Positions 4,232-35,281 of a stretch of DNA of 64,000 bases are shown in pieces. The notes beneath the pieces are model-generated. The model searched no databases. It worked only from the letters and a program-made list of their open reading frames with translations, and was not told where the DNA came from. The DNA is taken from NCBI RefSeq assembly GCF_041346945.1, contig NZ_CP166850.1, forward strand, positions 3,410,001-3,474,000. The letters are read 5' to 3'. Both the position numbers and the translations under genes were made by a program. The DNA is from Amycolatopsis sp. cg9. GTDB taxonomy: Bacteria > Actinomycetota > Actinomycetes > Mycobacteriales > Pseudonocardiaceae. The number at the start of each line of letters is the position of its first letter. The stretch's first letter is position 1.

Positions 4232-5775
<1,544 letters not shown>

Positions 5776-6888: not shown

Positions 6889-7995
6889 ATGCTGGACGCC
6901 GCCCGCGAGTGCGCCGCGCTCGCCAAGACGCTCGCGCCGGTCACCGAGCGGGACCGCGCGCTGCCGGCCGAGCTCGTCGCGAAGCTGACCGACGCCCAGC
7001 TCCTGCGCAGCGGCGTCCCCGGCCACCTCGGCGGGCCCGAAGCGCCGCCCGCCGTCAGCCTCGAAACCGCGGAGACGGTCGCGCGCGGCGACGCGTCGGC
7101 CGGCTGGTGCGTCTCGATCGCCGTGACGAGCAGCCTGCTGTCGGCGTACGCCCCGCGGAAGTGCGCCGAAGAGGTCTTCGGCGACCCGCGCACCGTCGCC
7201 GCCGGGGTCTGGGCGCCGCGCGGCACCGGTGAAAAGGTCGACGGCGGGTACACCGTGTCGGGCCGGTGGGCGTTCTGCAGCGGGATCCCGCACTGCGACT
7301 GGCTTTTCGCCGGGTTCGTCCACGAAGGACAGCTCTACGTCGCCGCGCTGCCGAAGACCGGGATCGCCGTGCTCGACACCTGGCACACGAACGGCCTGCG
7401 CGGCACCGGCAGCCACGACTGCGTCGCCGACGCGCTGTTCGTCCCGGACCACCGCGTCTTCTCGGTCATGGGCGGCCCGCCGCCGGAAGCCGGTGCGCTG
7501 CACCGGTTCCCGCTCTTCGGCTTCTTCGCGCTGTCCGTCGCCGCGGCCGCGCTGGGCAACGCGCGCGGCGCGATCGACGACCTCGTCGAGCTGGCCGCCA
7601 CGCGGAAACCGCTCGGCTCCAGCCGGTCGCTGGCCGAACGGTCCCAGACCCAGGCCGCCGTCGCGGAGGCCGAAGCCGCTTTGCGCGCGGCGCGGCTGTT
7701 CTTCTACGCCAGCATCGACGACGCCTGGCAGGCCGCGCAGGGCACCGAACCGGTGCCGGACGCGCTCAAGCTGGGCCTGCGCCTCGCCGCCACGCACGTC
7801 ACGCGCACCGCCGCGAAGGTCGCCGAAAGCATGTACGACCTCGGTGGCGGCGCCGCGATCTACGAGACTTCCCCGCTGCAGCGCCGGTTCCGCGACGCCC
7901 ACACCGCCACCGCCCACTTCCAGGTGAACCCGGCCAGCTTCGAGCTGTCGGGGAAGCTGCTCCTGGGGGTCCCGGCCCGCACGGAGCAGCTGTGA
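6889..7995 (+). CDS. Acyl-CoA dehydrogenase-fold flavin-dependent monooxygenase
   Basis: The 368-residue protein has the acyl-CoA dehydrogenase fold in the variant used by two-component flavin monooxygenases (HsaA/HpaB-like). An N-terminal helical part contains the group's signature GDASAGWCVSIAV (about 65-77). The middle beta domain has GGYTVSGRWAFCSGI, and the C-terminal helical domain ends near GKLLLGVP. There is no obvious catalytic Glu of true acyl-CoA dehydrogenases, so hydroxylation of an aromatic or other substrate with reduced flavin supplied by a partner is likely. No reductase is adjacent. It overlaps the HxlR gene by 4 bp (GTGA). Confidence 0.75.
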   Translation: MLDAARECAALAKTLAPVTERDRALPAELVAKLTDAQLLRSGVPGHLGGPEAPPAVSLETAETVARGDASAGWCVSIAVTSSLLSAYAPRKCAEEVFGDPRTVAAGVWAPRGTGEKVDGGYTVSGRWAFCSGIPHCDWLFAGFVHEGQLYVAALPKTGIAVLDTWHTNGLRGTGSHDCVADALFVPDHRVFSVMGGPPPEAGALHRFPLFGFFALSVAAAALGNARGAIDDLVELAATRKPLGSSRSLAERSQTQAAVAEAEAALRAARLFFYASIDDAWQAAQGTEPVPDALKLGLRLAATHVTRTAAKVAESMYDLGGGAAIYETSPLQRRFRDAHTATAHFQVNPASFELSGKLLLGVPARTEQL

Positions 7996-31082: not shown

Positions 31083-32126
31083 ATGGTGGCGACAGTGCGG
31101 GAGCACCGGATCGGCGACGTGCGCTGGACGATCGTCCGGGGGCCCCGGGAAGCCGCTTTCCGCGAGCTGGGGGCGTACGCCGCCGCCGACATCGGGACCG
31201 TCCTGGCGGGGCTGCCGTCGTGGCCGGTCACCGCGCGGGCCCGGCACTCGCCGGTGCGGTTCCGGGCGGTCGAATCGGCGTCGCAGGTCGAGCACCCGGA
31301 CGCCTACGCCGAGCTGACGGCGCTGGCCGAGGGCGCCGGCGTCCCGTTCGACGACCTGCTGCTGGCCAACCTGCGCGGCGACCTCGGCGCGGGCGACGGC
31401 ACCGGCTGCACGGACCTCGCGTGGGCCGGCGAGCCGTCGCTGCTCGGCCACAACGAAGACGGCGCCCCGGTGTTCGACGGCATCGGCCGGCTGCTGACGC
31501 TGCTGATCGACGGCGAGCCGGGCGTGTGCGTCTGGTGGTACCCGGGCTTCCTGCCGTCGAACACGTTCACGCTGACCACGCACGGGCTGGTGTGGGGGAT
31601 CGACAGCGTGAGCGTGGCGGCCCCGTCGCCGTGCGCCGGCCGGCACTTCGTGGCGCGCACGGCCCAGCGCGCGACGTCCGTGGCGGAAGCGGTGTCCCTA
31701 CTGCGTTCCCACGCTTCGGCGGGCGGGTTCGCGTACACGATGGGCGCCCTCGGCGCCCCGGCGGTGACGGTGGTCGAAAAGGCGGGCCACGACACCGCGG
31801 TGACCACTGTGGCCAGTGGGCTTTCCTGGCACACCAACCACTTCCGCCAGCTGCCCCCGCACCTGGACGTCGCCGCGGAGGAGAGCCTGGACCGCGCGGA
31901 GGTGTGCGCGCACCTGGCGCCCACGTCCCCGGACGCGAAGTGGCTGCTTTCGGCGTTGACGAACGACGTCCACCGCAACGCGACCGGCGGCGACGAGCTG
32001 ATGACGTTGAGCACCCTGGTGACGGACCTGGGTTCGGGCGAAGTGACCCTGGTGGCCCGCGGCGGGGAGCCGGTGCGGGCGCGGGCGGTGGACCTGGCCG
32101 CGGGGAACGTCGACGAGGTGGGCTGA
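31083..32126 (+). CDS. C45-family autoproteolytic acyltransferase/hydrolase
   Basis: A 347-residue protein with the N-terminal nucleophile fold of acyl-CoA:6-aminopenicillanate acyltransferases (peptidase C45). Cys109 in GTGCTDLAW is the predicted autocleavage nucleophile, followed by GHNEDG (about 122-127), the typical second-strand motif. Autoprocessing would give fragments of about 108 and 239 residues. There is no signal peptide. Family members hydrolyse or transfer acyl groups on small amides; the substrate is unknown and no beta-lactam biosynthesis genes are nearby. Confidence 0.8.
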   Translation: MVATVREHRIGDVRWTIVRGPREAAFRELGAYAAADIGTVLAGLPSWPVTARARHSPVRFRAVESASQVEHPDAYAELTALAEGAGVPFDDLLLANLRGDLGAGDGTGCTDLAWAGEPSLLGHNEDGAPVFDGIGRLLTLLIDGEPGVCVWWYPGFLPSNTFTLTTHGLVWGIDSVSVAAPSPCAGRHFVARTAQRATSVAEAVSLLRSHASAGGFAYTMGALGAPAVTVVEKAGHDTAVTTVASGLSWHTNHFRQLPPHLDVAAEESLDRAEVCAHLAPTSPDAKWLLSALTNDVHRNATGGDELMTLSTLVTDLGSGEVTLVARGGEPVRARAVDLAAGNVDEVG

Positions 32127-32331
32127 ATCGGCCTGCACGAGCTGTCCACATGGGGTCTGGTTGTCCACAGATTTGGGTCGTCACCCTTTCGTGCAGGTCG
32201 GGGCCGGTAGGCTGGAATCGGGACGCGCCCCCCAGTGGAGGGCGGGGGTGCGCTCAGCCCGCGTCGGCCGCATCGACGGTGGAGTACGCGCTGCTGGCGG
32301 GCACCAACGCCACCGCCATCGAATACGGCCT

Positions 32332-32356
32332 CTGACGCTCAGCCCGCCGGGGTCAG
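32332..32356. repeat. Left copy of the cassette-flanking direct repeat
   Basis: This 25-bp sequence (beginning CTGACGCTCAGCCCG, ending GGGGTCAG) is identical to 34693-34717; the bases on either side differ. It contains the stop codon of the last cassette gene. Confidence 0.9.
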
Positions 32357-32970
32357 TCCTGGCGTCGACCCACGGCGAGGGACTCCACCGCCTTGACCAG
32401 GTCTTCCGGCAGGTCGACCACAGCGTCCGCTGCTGCCGCGGACAACTCCTCCGCCACCGCCGCGGCGTCCAGCGTGTAGACGACGACGGGGATGGTGTTT
32501 CCGGCTGCTCTCGTCTCCCGGATGAAGTCCAACCCGGCCCGGGGGTCTCCGGAGCGGGTGAGGTCGGTGATGACGACGGCGAATTCCAGCTGGGACAGGT
32601 AGACGCGCGCGGCTTCCGTCGACGTCGCGACGGTGACCAGCTTGCCGAGGCGTTCGAGGGCGAGCGTTTCGTACACGTTGTTGTCCGGGACGTCGTCCAC
32701 CCAGAGGATGCGGGCGAGCACGCTGTTCGTGCCGATCGACGTCAGATCGGGCCGGGCGGTTCCCCGCCCCTTGTCCTTGGTGGCCTCCAGCGCCGCTTCT
32801 TCGGCCTTCGCCGTGTTCAGGGGCGAAAGACTGAGGTCCATCTCGAAAACTTCCCCCAATGAGAACTTGAGGGTGCTGTGCCCGGAACCGTGCTGCCCGC
32901 GCCAGAGGAGGATCAGGACGCCGATCACCAGTACCAAGCCGACAACCAGCAAAATGATGTTCGTATCCAC
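32353..32970 (-). CDS. Membrane-anchored receiver-like protein
   Basis: A 205-residue protein with one N-terminal transmembrane helix (about 5-23), a polar linker (24-85), and a CheY-like domain at about 86-200. The domain starts ILWVDD with the acidic pair Asp92-Asp93, has a phospho-acceptor-like Asp136 in VITDL, and a YT pair in VVVYTLD. The usual conserved lysine is not where expected, so phosphorylation is uncertain and it may be a pseudo-receiver. There is no output domain or kinase nearby. The GTG at 32970 has a strong GAGGGGG ribosome site, and only 2 bp separate it from the preceding cassette gene. Confidence 0.65.
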   Translation of the reverse strand: MDTNIILLVVGLVLVIGVLILLWRGQHGSGHSTLKFSLGEVFEMDLSLSPLNTAKAEEAALEATKDKGRGTARPDLTSIGTNSVLARILWVDDVPDNNVYETLALERLGKLVTVATSTEAARVYLSQLEFAVVITDLTRSGDPRAGLDFIRETRAAGNTIPVVVYTLDAAAVAEELSAAAADAVVDLPEDLVKAVESLAVGRRQD

Positions 32971-32972
32971 CG

Positions 32973-33938
32973 CTACCCCCTCTCGAAACGGTCATCGGAT
33001 CCACCTGCCAGGGCTGCGCCCAGTTCGATCGGCATGCGTCCGATGGGGCTGAGGTCGCGGCCGCCAGGTACCTCGGCCAACGCGTTCAGCAGGGTGTCCT
33101 GGCCGAAGGCCCTCGTCGTCAGTGCGGCGATCCCGCAGATGTCCAGATCCGCGACGTCCACCGGAGCCGCTCCGTTCCGCCACAGGTAGGTGTTGGTCCG
33201 GGCGAGACTGATCGTCTCTTCGTACGAGCGGCACATGGCGACGACGTGCTGGGCGATGCGGTGGGCATCTCTGCGGCGCCCCCGGAGCAGGTGTTGAGCC
33301 ACGGACCAGAACCGGTGGATGGGGGTGCCCAGGCTTCCCACGGGCAGTACGCCGGAGCGGTGCGGAGAGGAGTCCAGCATGTTCGACAGCGCCTCGGTGA
33401 GAGGATCGAACTCGCGTACGTGCTCTCCGGAGAAACGTGCCCTGCTGGCTACGCCACTCGCGGTCAAGACCAGGTAGGCCTGCTGCTGCTGCTGCTGGTG
33501 CAACTGGATGTCGGGCAAGGGGGCCGGAGCCGGTGCGGAAGTGGCACGGTCCGGCGGCAGTCCTGAGGCTTGTCGAACAGCTTGAGCGAGAACGCTGTAG
33601 TCCTCGTCGTGCTCCCGTCCGGTGGTGACGACCTCGAGGTACATCCCGAAGGCATGACCCAGCGCGCGGAAGAGTGCTCCCGCGCGCTGGAGGAGCTCAC
33701 CTGCCCGTACCGGATCCAGGAGCAGCGCCCATTGCCCGGCTTCGCGCAACGCGCTGGCCGTATCGGCGATCAGCGTGAACGTCAGGTCGTCTGCGCCTGG
33801 GCGAATTACCGCCTGCTTCACGGTGGAAATGGACTCGAGTTCGAGCGCTGCGGTCGTCGCGTAGGCTTCGTGGAACTGTGCTGTCGCGCGGACCTGTTCC
33901 GGGTCGAGCCCGAGGTGTTCGAGGTGTTCGACGGTCAC
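32973..33938 (-). CDS. Cassette protein of unknown family
   Basis: The 321-residue, mostly helical protein starts at GTG 33938, directly after the stop of the upstream gene. It shows no transmembrane helix or enzyme motif that I recognise. A helix-rich N-terminal half (about 10-125) resembles TPR-like packing (TASALREAGQWALLLDP, ELLQRAGALFRALG). A Pro/Ala linker then leads to a glutamine run at 148-153 encoded by CAG repeats, followed by a second helical half ending GSDDRFERG. An adaptor or scaffold between the other two cassette products is a guess. Confidence 0.55.
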   Translation of the reverse strand: MTVEHLEHLGLDPEQVRATAQFHEAYATTAALELESISTVKQAVIRPGADDLTFTLIADTASALREAGQWALLLDPVRAGELLQRAGALFRALGHAFGMYLEVVTTGREHDEDYSVLAQAVRQASGLPPDRATSAPAPAPLPDIQLHQQQQQQAYLVLTASGVASRARFSGEHVREFDPLTEALSNMLDSSPHRSGVLPVGSLGTPIHRFWSVAQHLLRGRRRDAHRIAQHVVAMCRSYEETISLARTNTYLWRNGAAPVDVADLDICGIAALTTRAFGQDTLLNALAEVPGGRDLSPIGRMPIELGAALAGGSDDRFERG

Positions 33939-34568
33939 TCAGATCAGCTCCCGGACGTTCGTCAAGATCTCCGGTGGGGTGAACCGCGGGTTGTGCTGGG
34001 TCCAGACCTTGACGAATTTCTTCCGATTGCCGCCGCGGAGCTCCCATTTTTCGCAGTGGCTGATCTGGTTGTCGGGAACGATGATCTTGGCCGCGACTTC
34101 GCCCTCGGTCTGGTAGGCCGAGTACCGTCGGTAGGCGTTGAGATCGCGCACCTCCTCGGCCACTCCTTCGATGCCGACCGCGGTGCGCGGCGCTAGGATG
34201 ACCCAACACGTGTAGAGGTACGCGACGTCACGTCGGCCGAACTGGGTACCGAACCACAGTGCCGTCTTCCTGGCGCGGTGCACCAGGTTCGTCGCCGCCA
34301 GGACGTCACGCTCCACCGTGCCGGCCGAGAGGGAGATGAACGGGCTGTTCTCGGAGAAAGGAATTCCGGTCGTGGGGTCGTTTTCCTCGAAATGATTGAC
34401 GTGCCGATCGATGTTCGCCGGCGTGAGCTTGTCCCTGACCTCGACTGGTCTGATCTGGTGGACCTTTCGCCACCAGTTGCAGTGCAGACCGTCTCCGTCT
34501 GCGATCAACTGCCGTGCTTCGTCGTCGCCGGGCAGGTGGATGCCCTTGACGCACCACTGAATGATCAT
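33939..34568 (-). CDS. Cassette protein with possible ADP-ribosyltransferase-like features
   Basis: The 209-residue protein starts at ATG 34568 and is first in the cassette. It has no signal peptide. FISLSAG at 77-83 sits where ADP-ribosyltransferases carry their STS-like strand, and YQTEGEVAAK at 152-161 has an E-x-E pair (Glu155, Glu157) followed by a hydrophobic strand, as in the catalytic loop of that fold. An N-terminal Arg (Arg19) could be the NAD-binding arginine. A block TNLVHRARKTALWFGTQFGRR (about 93-113, cited in part) lies between. These matches are by eye and weak; an unrelated conserved fold is quite possible. Confidence 0.45.
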   Translation of the reverse strand: MIIQWCVKGIHLPGDDEARQLIADGDGLHCNWWRKVHQIRPVEVRDKLTPANIDRHVNHFEENDPTTGIPFSENSPFISLSAGTVERDVLAATNLVHRARKTALWFGTQFGRRDVAYLYTCWVILAPRTAVGIEGVAEEVRDLNAYRRYSAYQTEGEVAAKIIVPDNQISHCEKWELRGGNRKKFVKVWTQHNPRFTPPEILTNVRELI

Positions 34569-34692
34569 TTGCCCTGCTGCCCCTCGGCGAACGTGGCATC
34601 GGCGATTTTCGGCCGATTTGTCGAGTCCTAAGTCGCGTCCGGGATCGAAAACGTTTCGCTCACTTTCGCCGGCTCTGAGGACCGGCTATTTC

Positions 34693-34717
34693 CTGACGCT
34701 CAGCCCGCCGGGGTCAG
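34693..34717. repeat. Right copy of the cassette-flanking direct repeat
   Basis: Identical over 25 bp to 32332-32356. It overlaps the last codons (Leu-Thr-Pro-Ala-Gly-stop) of the reductase gene, so integration here would leave that gene intact. Confidence 0.9.
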
Positions 34718-35281
34718 GATCGCCTGGGCGTCCTCGCCCGCGAACCACAGCCCGATGACGAACGCCGCCGTGGCCTCCAAGAGGGCCGCGCGGTCCAGGC
34801 CGCCCGCAGGCACCGGCTTCGCGCCGATGTCGTGGACCAGCGTGCTCACCGCTTCGAGCGCCGCCGGGTCGTCGCCGCACAGGGGGACCGACAGCGGGCG
34901 GCCACCGAACACCGGGGGTGTCATCCGCCAGACGTCGACGTGCGCGAGGTTGAACGCCTTGACCACGTGGGCGTCCGTGGCGATCCGCGAAGCCACCGGC
35001 GCGCCGGTCAGTGCCGGGTCGTTGGTGCAGTCCACCAGGACCTTCCCCGCGAGCGGGCCCGCCGCCGCGACGACCTCGGCGATCGCGGAAACCGGGACGG
35101 CCAGGAGCAGGACGTCCGCGAATTCCGCCGTGGAACGCCAAGACCCGTGAGAAGCGCCGAGTCGTGCGGCCAGAGCTGCCGGGTCGGACCGGCCGCTCAC
35201 CCTCAGCTCGTGCCCCGCTCGCGCCCACTGCGTGCCGAGCGCGTCCGCCATCCCGCCCGTGCCGAAGATCCCGATCCGCAT
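34700..35281 (-). CDS. NADPH-dependent F420 reductase-like protein
   Basis: A 193-residue Rossmann protein starting MRIGIFGTGGMADALG, the GxGxxA nucleotide-binding loop. SGRSD after strand 2 suggests NADP preference. ADVLLLAVPVSAIAEVV and VDCTNDP match the F420:NADPH oxidoreductase/YrpG-like family. It might reduce coenzyme F420 or act as a related NAD(P)-binding oxidoreductase. It is divergent from an HxlR regulator gene, which probably controls it. The last five codons form one end of the cassette-flanking repeat. Confidence 0.8.
   Translation of the reverse strand: MRIGIFGTGGMADALGTQWARAGHELRVSGRSDPAALAARLGASHGSWRSTAEFADVLLLAVPVSAIAEVVAAAGPLAGKVLVDCTNDPALTGAPVASRIATDAHVVKAFNLAHVDVWRMTPPVFGGRPLSVPLCGDDPAALEAVSTLVHDIGAKPVPAGGLDRAALLEATAAFVIGLWFAGEDAQAILTPAG

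Follow-up and report, generated by a model that had tools for sequence, protein, structure and literature searches.

How does a compact operon whose products match no recombinase family come to stand between two identical short repeats, and what might it do there? The question is raised by positions 32332 to 34717 of a 64,000-nt stretch of the genome of Amycolatopsis sp. cg9 (contig NZ_CP166850.1, positions 3,410,001 to 3,474,000; the window in what follows), where a perfect 25-bp direct repeat encloses three genes, here called A, B, and C, beside a host gene for an F420-dependent oxidoreductase-like protein. We read it, as our best interpretation, as a mobile operon for conflict or defence whose effector, ADP-ribosyltransferase (ART)-like, would be controlled by B and C. 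As an explanation of the whole, entry of the operon into an empty allele together with a conflict role for its three products has in our estimate a probability of about 0.45; insertion at this locus is well supported, and a defence function stands at about even odds.

The repeat, the insert, and the empty site

The features of the locus are the following.

32332-32356: left repeat copy, CTGACGCTCAGCCCGCCGGGGTCAG; contains the TGA stop of gene C (32353-32355)
34693-34717: right repeat copy, CTGACGCTCAGCCCGCCGGGGTCAG; closes the F420_oxidored gene with its final five codons (LTPAG) and stop, and continues for 7 bp
32357-34692, minus strand: inserted segment, 2336 bp, GC content 0.649; absent in G025 and other near relatives
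33939-34568, minus strand: gene A, 209 aa, probably ADP-ribosyltransferase-like; QWCxKG ... PFISLS ... SAYQTEGE
32973-33938, minus strand: gene B, 321 aa, partner of A; helical and tetratricopeptide repeat (TPR)-like by eye
32353-32970, minus strand: gene C, 205 aa; N-terminal hydrophobic (membrane) stretch and a receiver-like domain without the conserved lysine
34569-34692, minus strand: upstream region of the operon inside the insert, with motifs GAAACGTTTTC and CGACTTAGGA (by eye)
34700-35281, minus strand: host F420-dependent oxidoreductase-like gene (F420_oxidored; Pfam E 1.9e-14), the target gene, intact

An initial annotation of this stretch had described most of this layout from the letters alone, and the description stood. 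The two copies of CTGACGCTCAGCCCGCCGGGGTCAG are 100% identical and enclose three genes that all lie on the minus strand with spacers of 0 and 2 bp. The right copy had been recognized as the last codons and stop of the F420 gene, to which we add the 7 bp beyond it; that the left copy supplies the stop of gene C had been missed. The lower GC content of the insert also holds, by a very small margin: its 0.6485 is the window minimum, next to 0.6494 for the next-lowest stretch of the same length and a median of 0.70 (100-bp steps). As had been said, no recombinase lies inside, since family profile scans gave no recombinase match for A, B, or C (recombinases elsewhere in the genome were not searched).

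The 25-mer itself is rare. Allowing up to three mismatches, it has two matches in the window against none in 100 shuffles, and exactly two exact copies are found in the whole genome (10,637,084 bases, hereafter G000; codes in G and L denote comparison genomes and loci). No other of the 80 genomes of the genus carries two copies within three mismatches. These genome-wide and genus-wide counts rule out a dispersed repeat, the explanation that the initial annotation had itself named as fatal to its proposal.

A site without the cassette had been predicted among relatives, and one was found. In G025 the end of the F420 gene is followed by one exact copy of the 25-mer and then by the small gene that in G000 lies to the left of the cassette; the flanking proteins of the two genomes are 97% (F420), 95% (AAT acyltransferase), and 98% (helicase) identical. 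The same junction is seen in G048, G052, and G029, with 4, 2, and 3 mismatches in the 25-mer, respectively, and G017 and G042 are also empty, but there the F420 gene runs directly into the AAT gene. Altogether, the cassette is present in 5 and missing from 23 of the 28 flank loci compared, and gene A occurs in only 6 of the 80 genus genomes, far from the universal presence that would have spoken for plain vertical descent.

To place the change, a quick tree was made from four flanking proteins. On it, G000 groups with the empty G025, G017, G042, and G048 (Shimodaira-Hasegawa-like approximate likelihood ratio test, SH-aLRT, 98). Four changes explain the pattern, three of them forced by starred branches, while loss alone from an ancestor of the five carriers takes nine. 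We read this as a gain of the cassette in the G000 lineage, which is cheaper on this tree than losses alone. The repeat, the empty site, and the tree are direct observations; the direction of the change and its mechanism are inferred.

The left flank of the insert and its right end have features of their own. On the left, positions 32263-32335 (plus strand) hold the remnant of a small secreted-peptide gene, whose start in G000 is replaced by unrelated sequence; the gene is whole, with a signal peptide by eye, in G025, G048, G052, and G029. Next to it, 136 bp (32127-32262) have by eye no counterpart in G025, contain TTGTCCACA-like words, and match in pieces two other places of G000 at 85% and 91%. 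A third piece of the repeat, 12 bp long, lies at 32251-32262; a part for it in the event was weighed and rejected, because other perfect 12-13-mers of the region (families D14, D16, and D17) put it at chance level. On the right, within the insert, the upstream motifs GAAACGTTTTC and CGACTTAGGA look by eye like sequences that precede the Kutzneria copy, with a looser resemblance to those before the G023 and G077 copies; GAAACGTTTTC is a possible operator or promoter part.

Possible routes of entry

We propose that the three-gene operon entered an empty allele of the kind seen in G025, in the interval with the F420_oxidored gene on one side and the AAT-acyltransferase and helicase genes on the other. 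Entry would have left a 25-bp target duplication, by which the host F420 gene stays whole and gene C gains its stop codon. If so, the one 25-mer of G025 and the two of G000 make a clean natural case of how a bare operon that brings no recombinase with it can enter the chromosome of an actinobacterium. The interval from the F420 to the helicase gene (31083-35281) is variable in the genus in other respects too: the AAT gene, the peptide gene, a monooxygenase-like gene, and the cassette each come and go.

Five of the six carriers in the genus have the module between the F420 gene and the helicase gene. It follows the F420 gene directly in G000, G023 (A. kentuckyensis, L054), and G077 (A. vancoresmycina, L053), and lies one gene further away in G071 and G016 (A. 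dendrobii, L058), where the intervening gene is by our reading an FAD-monooxygenase. The sixth, G029, has a distant copy of gene A (42%) elsewhere in its genome. The junctions differ. None of the four other carriers with the module in this interval has the 25-mer at the module locus, a match with three mismatches in G016 being on another contig. Among the five largest direct-repeat families of each of six carrier loci (L039, L040, L041, L042, L050, and L059), no perfect pair flanks the cassette. Imperfect pairs spanning all or nearly all of it were found in three of them (17 of 18 nt in L039, 20 nt at 80% in L041, and 31 nt at 71% in L042), and such pairs are also frequent by chance in scans of this kind. 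The L039 pair (4743-4760 and 7311-7328 of that locus, from G077) is the best of them; one copy lies in the F420 gene and the other close to where C ends, so that A, B, and the greater part of C fall between them. It is perhaps due to chance as well. In G078 the best F420 match (C16:168721-168970) covers residues 1-63 only and is shortly followed by a copy of the 25-mer with three mismatches.

A shared place with different junctions suggests homologous recombination or old residence as much as a site-specific island, and is easier to reconcile with recombination that brought the module in from a congener than with a conserved attachment site. We tentatively favor, at somewhat less than even odds, import by homologous recombination with a congener that carries the module in this position; the exchange would have been anchored in the F420 gene and closed by an inexact join at the other end. 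A tree of gene A sets the G016 and G071 copies apart from those of G000, G023, and G077, and copies from Kutzneria and unnamed organisms branch between these two Amycolatopsis groups (support 86-92), which makes movement between genera likely.

The initial annotation had instead seen a small island mobilized in trans at an attachment site, and this is the part of it that our results do not support. Under such site-specific integration, the 25-mer would be an attB core at the 3' end of the F420 gene, used by a tyrosine recombinase acting in trans or left by an element that has lost its integrase, as in a cis-mobilizable element (CIME). PMC5704250 describes integrative elements flanked by repeats of 8-60 bp, located at the 3' end of a gene that is kept, as is the case here. 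The ends of the 25-mer also form a 5-bp inverted pair, CTGAC/GTCAG, a property shared by 154 of the 63,975 25-mers of the window (0.24%), although it was noticed post hoc. However, the cassette contains no integrase, and the missing 25-mer in the four congeners, the absence of perfect border repeats in the six loci scanned, and the lack of a second two-copy genome in the genus all make this route doubtful.

Two further routes seem to us improbable to a similar degree. A DNA break with staggered ends of 25 nt may have captured a fragment, after which the ends were filled in and joined; no recombinase would be needed, and the length of the repeat would be accidental. A two-copy repeat found only here would suit this, as would the finding that no inverted pair connects the ends of the insert (25 of the 27 pairs listed), but four other congeners with the module in the same interval would be left unexplained. 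Alternatively, the operon may be an old resident of the interval that has passed down by vertical descent with repeated losses, which in G025 and other genomes would have come about by recombination between repeats. The common interval of five of the six genus carriers speaks for old residence, as do the cassette of G023, which precedes the same peptide-gene end as in G000, and the separation of the G016 and G071 copies on the gene A tree. On the other side, nine losses would be required, eight of them inside the 21-tip clade of G000, G023, and G077 (where some of the forks are weak); the 25-mer is missing from G023 and G077, whereas the two copies in G000 match each other and the one in G025 exactly; and the Kutzneria and unnamed copies interrupt the Amycolatopsis groups. 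A DDE-type transposon with terminal inverted repeats is rejected on the same list of inverted pairs.

The module and its proteins

Genes A, B, and C form one rare, patchily spread module. A scan with two peptide patterns over one genome per species (84,980 species) gave 15 loci, in Amycolatopsis, Kutzneria, Streptomyces, Planotetraspora, Lentzea, Paractinoplanes, Actinokineospora, and bins of Kiloniellaceae and Phenylobacterium, which we take to be Alphaproteobacteria. With G000, G071, and G029 added, and loci of genomes fetched twice counted once, 18 distinct loci were compared. Gene A occurs in 9 of 390 genomes of the family and in 1 of 394 genomes of the class, the one being G000. The search for the same genes elsewhere that the initial annotation had suggested was thus successful as regards unrelated loci and other genera; the different flanking repeats that it expected there did not appear in perfect form among the five largest families of the six loci scanned.

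After a first grouping by all-against-all BLASTP of called open reading frames (ORFs), profiles placed B next to A in all 18 loci and C in 13. These counts are partly circular, as many of the loci also contributed rows to the profiles, which affects 12 of the 13 matches of C and several matches of B; matches free of this overlap are those of B in L066 (E 3.5e-13) and in L067 (E 6e-6) and that of C in L064 (E 1.1e-48). B is present in all nine family carriers of A. Without A, it gave three weak matches in family genomes (G262, G302, and G185; E 1.3e-6 to 6.2e-4), that of G262 falling on what we read as a regulator-like ORF.

The third partner is more changeable. C or another membrane-type protein accompanies A and B on the same strand in 15 of the 18 loci, and the gene order varies, with C before A in L062 and L065. 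In L043 and L066, which lack C, the gene directly upstream of A codes for a different protein whose N terminus is, by eye, also hydrophobic. These candidate alternative sensors (L066:2437-3420 and L043:6395-6961) are unlike C and weakly alike (E 0.003), and the L066 protein matches PADLOC RTasTM in its C-terminal part (E 1.2e-7, over about 30-100 residues). In L061, A and B are followed by an unrelated membrane-type protein on the opposite strand (by eye); L067 was seen to hold A and B only, and L056 ends so soon after B that the presence of C cannot be judged there.

By its motifs, A is probably an ART-like protein. Its alignment has 153 rows, 149 among the best-listed homologues (best 120 of 326 and best 120 of 733) and 4 from distant loci. 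The ARTC signature phi-x-x-[EQ]-x-E, with an aromatic residue at phi, occurs in 151 of the 153 homologues, with E-x-E in 151 and Q-x-E in 2. It corresponds to the ARTC motif X-X-phi-X-X-Glu/Gln-X-Glu of PMC11281641. Ser79 in PFISLS and the pair Gly156-Glu157 are present in all 153 rows, and position 81 is S in 121, T in 27, and A in 5. In our reading, the Ser79 segment may be the S-T-S-type serine strand of ARTC, and the order of elements (strand with serine, helix, strand, ExE strand) would fit an ART layout.

B has no firm family match in Pfam, PADLOC, and further family tests, its best PADLOC match being PD-Lambda-3_A (E 0.034). Its conserved blocks, for instance ADAASALREAGQWALLLDP, look helical and TPR-like by eye. 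C starts in G000 with a hydrophobic stretch (19-residue mean 3.36 at residue 5); across 12 homologues the mean is 1.5-3.4, near the N terminus in 11 and at residue 68 in L062. Its receiver-domain match to PF00072 (E 2.8e-6) scores 27.9 bits against a cut-off of 30.2. Of the receiver residues, the DD pair is kept in 12 of 12, the phospho-accepting Asp in 11, and the Thr in 10, and the aligned Lys in none, so that C is not a canonical receiver. The three-gene cassette contains no histidine kinase, from which we would guess that gating by C is independent of phosphorylation.

How such parts might work together can be proposed from architecture and context. A would be the effector and would draw on NAD+ to modify its target, which could be cellular or belong to a phage. 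B, produced beside it, would be a helical adaptor that keeps A silent or presents its target, and C would anchor the complex to the membrane and relay a trigger, for example envelope perturbation by phage, through its degenerate receiver. A conflict system is suggested by the rarity and patchiness of the module, the coupling of A and B, and a membrane partner that is exchanged between loci and in one case is of defence type. The signalling or defence-like make-up that the initial annotation had supposed is in keeping with this gene content. Among 19 hand-picked neighbor proteins (Pfam), four were recombinase- or transposase-like (L051, L052, L065, and L067) and two were helicase or type I restriction proteins, also matched by PADLOC, which in L062 lie about 5 kb and in L067 about 8 kb away from A.

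Several observations weigh against this reading. On the flank tree, in which 9 of the 25 inner forks are weak, the carriers group together no more than expected by chance (127 of 500 shuffles gave a value as low). The divergence between G000 and G077 is similar for A (83% identity), AAT (84%), and F420 (78%), with which old residence with losses would also agree. A has no significant match in Pfam, NCBIfam, or PADLOC, and its best PDB sequence match has an E of 0.23; no PADLOC model matches A or C at E 1, and B does so only at the 0.034 given above. The first-strand Arg of the R-S-E class is not seen, Lys8 standing there in all 151 rows with letters (strand by eye). DUF7587, presumably an ART-like Pfam family, was reached by a single A homologue (E 0.0059, over most of the profile); it had no match in 296 class genomes nor in 14 control genomes, so that the control is likewise blank. 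A profile comparison of A with DarT and KptA gave no signal, in a setting without power, as DarT and KptA did not detect each other either and reversed profiles reached similar scores; family tests of divergent A members gave nothing firm. A was absent from phages and plasmids (tblastn) and from IMG/VR, where 41 stretches fit a pattern and none was a relative of A (PHROGs was not searched). Finally, 13 of the 19 neighbors are neither mobile nor defence-like, so that this set shows no enrichment, and the neighborhood of the cassette in G000 is metabolic rather than a defence island.

A function outside defence appears to us unlikely, though it deserves to be weighed: A and B could be a toxin and its antitoxin, or the operon could serve developmental signalling with C as sensor. 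The constancy of the A and B core (18 of 18 loci) is what a toxin-antitoxin pair would show, and the receiver-like C would suit a signalling operon. Against either stands the membrane-type protein beside the pair in 15 of 18 loci, and patchy presence together with the defence-type partner in L066 fits conflict better than a developmental role.

Returning to the conflict reading, its boldest form is an immune system, as yet undescribed, that soil actinobacteria would share with some alphaproteobacteria, with a lysine-variant ART-like effector, an obligate helical adaptor, and exchangeable membrane-anchored sensors (mostly pseudo-receivers, others RTasTM-like), spreading as a bare operon; we put it forward as a speculative possibility. 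Our literature search, as far as the listings it gave extend, turned up no description of the A-B-C trio. If the reading is right, it adds an ART-like effector family not named by the Pfam, NCBIfam, PADLOC, and PDB sequence searches made here, and the constant core with its swappable membrane partner would link membrane sensing to NAD-dependent killing.

Comparison with known systems

A shares with ARTC and DarT-type bacterial ARTs a serine in a PFISxS segment followed by phi-x-x-E-x-E, and differs from them in the Lys at the expected position of the first-strand Arg (by eye) and in the lack of a significant hidden Markov model match. The antitoxin of DarT is a macrodomain or NADAR protein, whereas the partners in the cassette are B and C. 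L066, from Kiloniellaceae, has the RTasTM-matching protein upstream of A; the likeness is partial, on a 5-kb contig where no reverse transcriptase was looked for, and G000 has the receiver-like C instead.

As to the insertion, the cassette resembles CIMEs and integrase-less remnants in its short direct repeats, one of them a gene 3' end, and in its empty site. It differs from them in being tiny (2.3 kb), in having no integrase, and in that the other carriers of the genus lack the repeat. Homology-facilitated illegitimate recombination, whose hallmarks are 3-10 bp of microhomology where the illegitimate joint forms and, as a rule, a deletion, would allow for a homologous anchor in the F420 gene and for a small insert. 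Its products usually carry a deletion according to PMC3240628, whereas here there is a 25-bp duplication and no deletion at the insert. The nucleoside triphosphate (NTP)-dependent conflict systems, as portrayed in PMC7159879, combine modular effectors and regulators, with an occasional receiver domain on the effector side. Although A, B, and C match no NTPase, vWA, or AP-ATPase family, the module shares with these systems the modularity of effector and regulator and the receiver domain.

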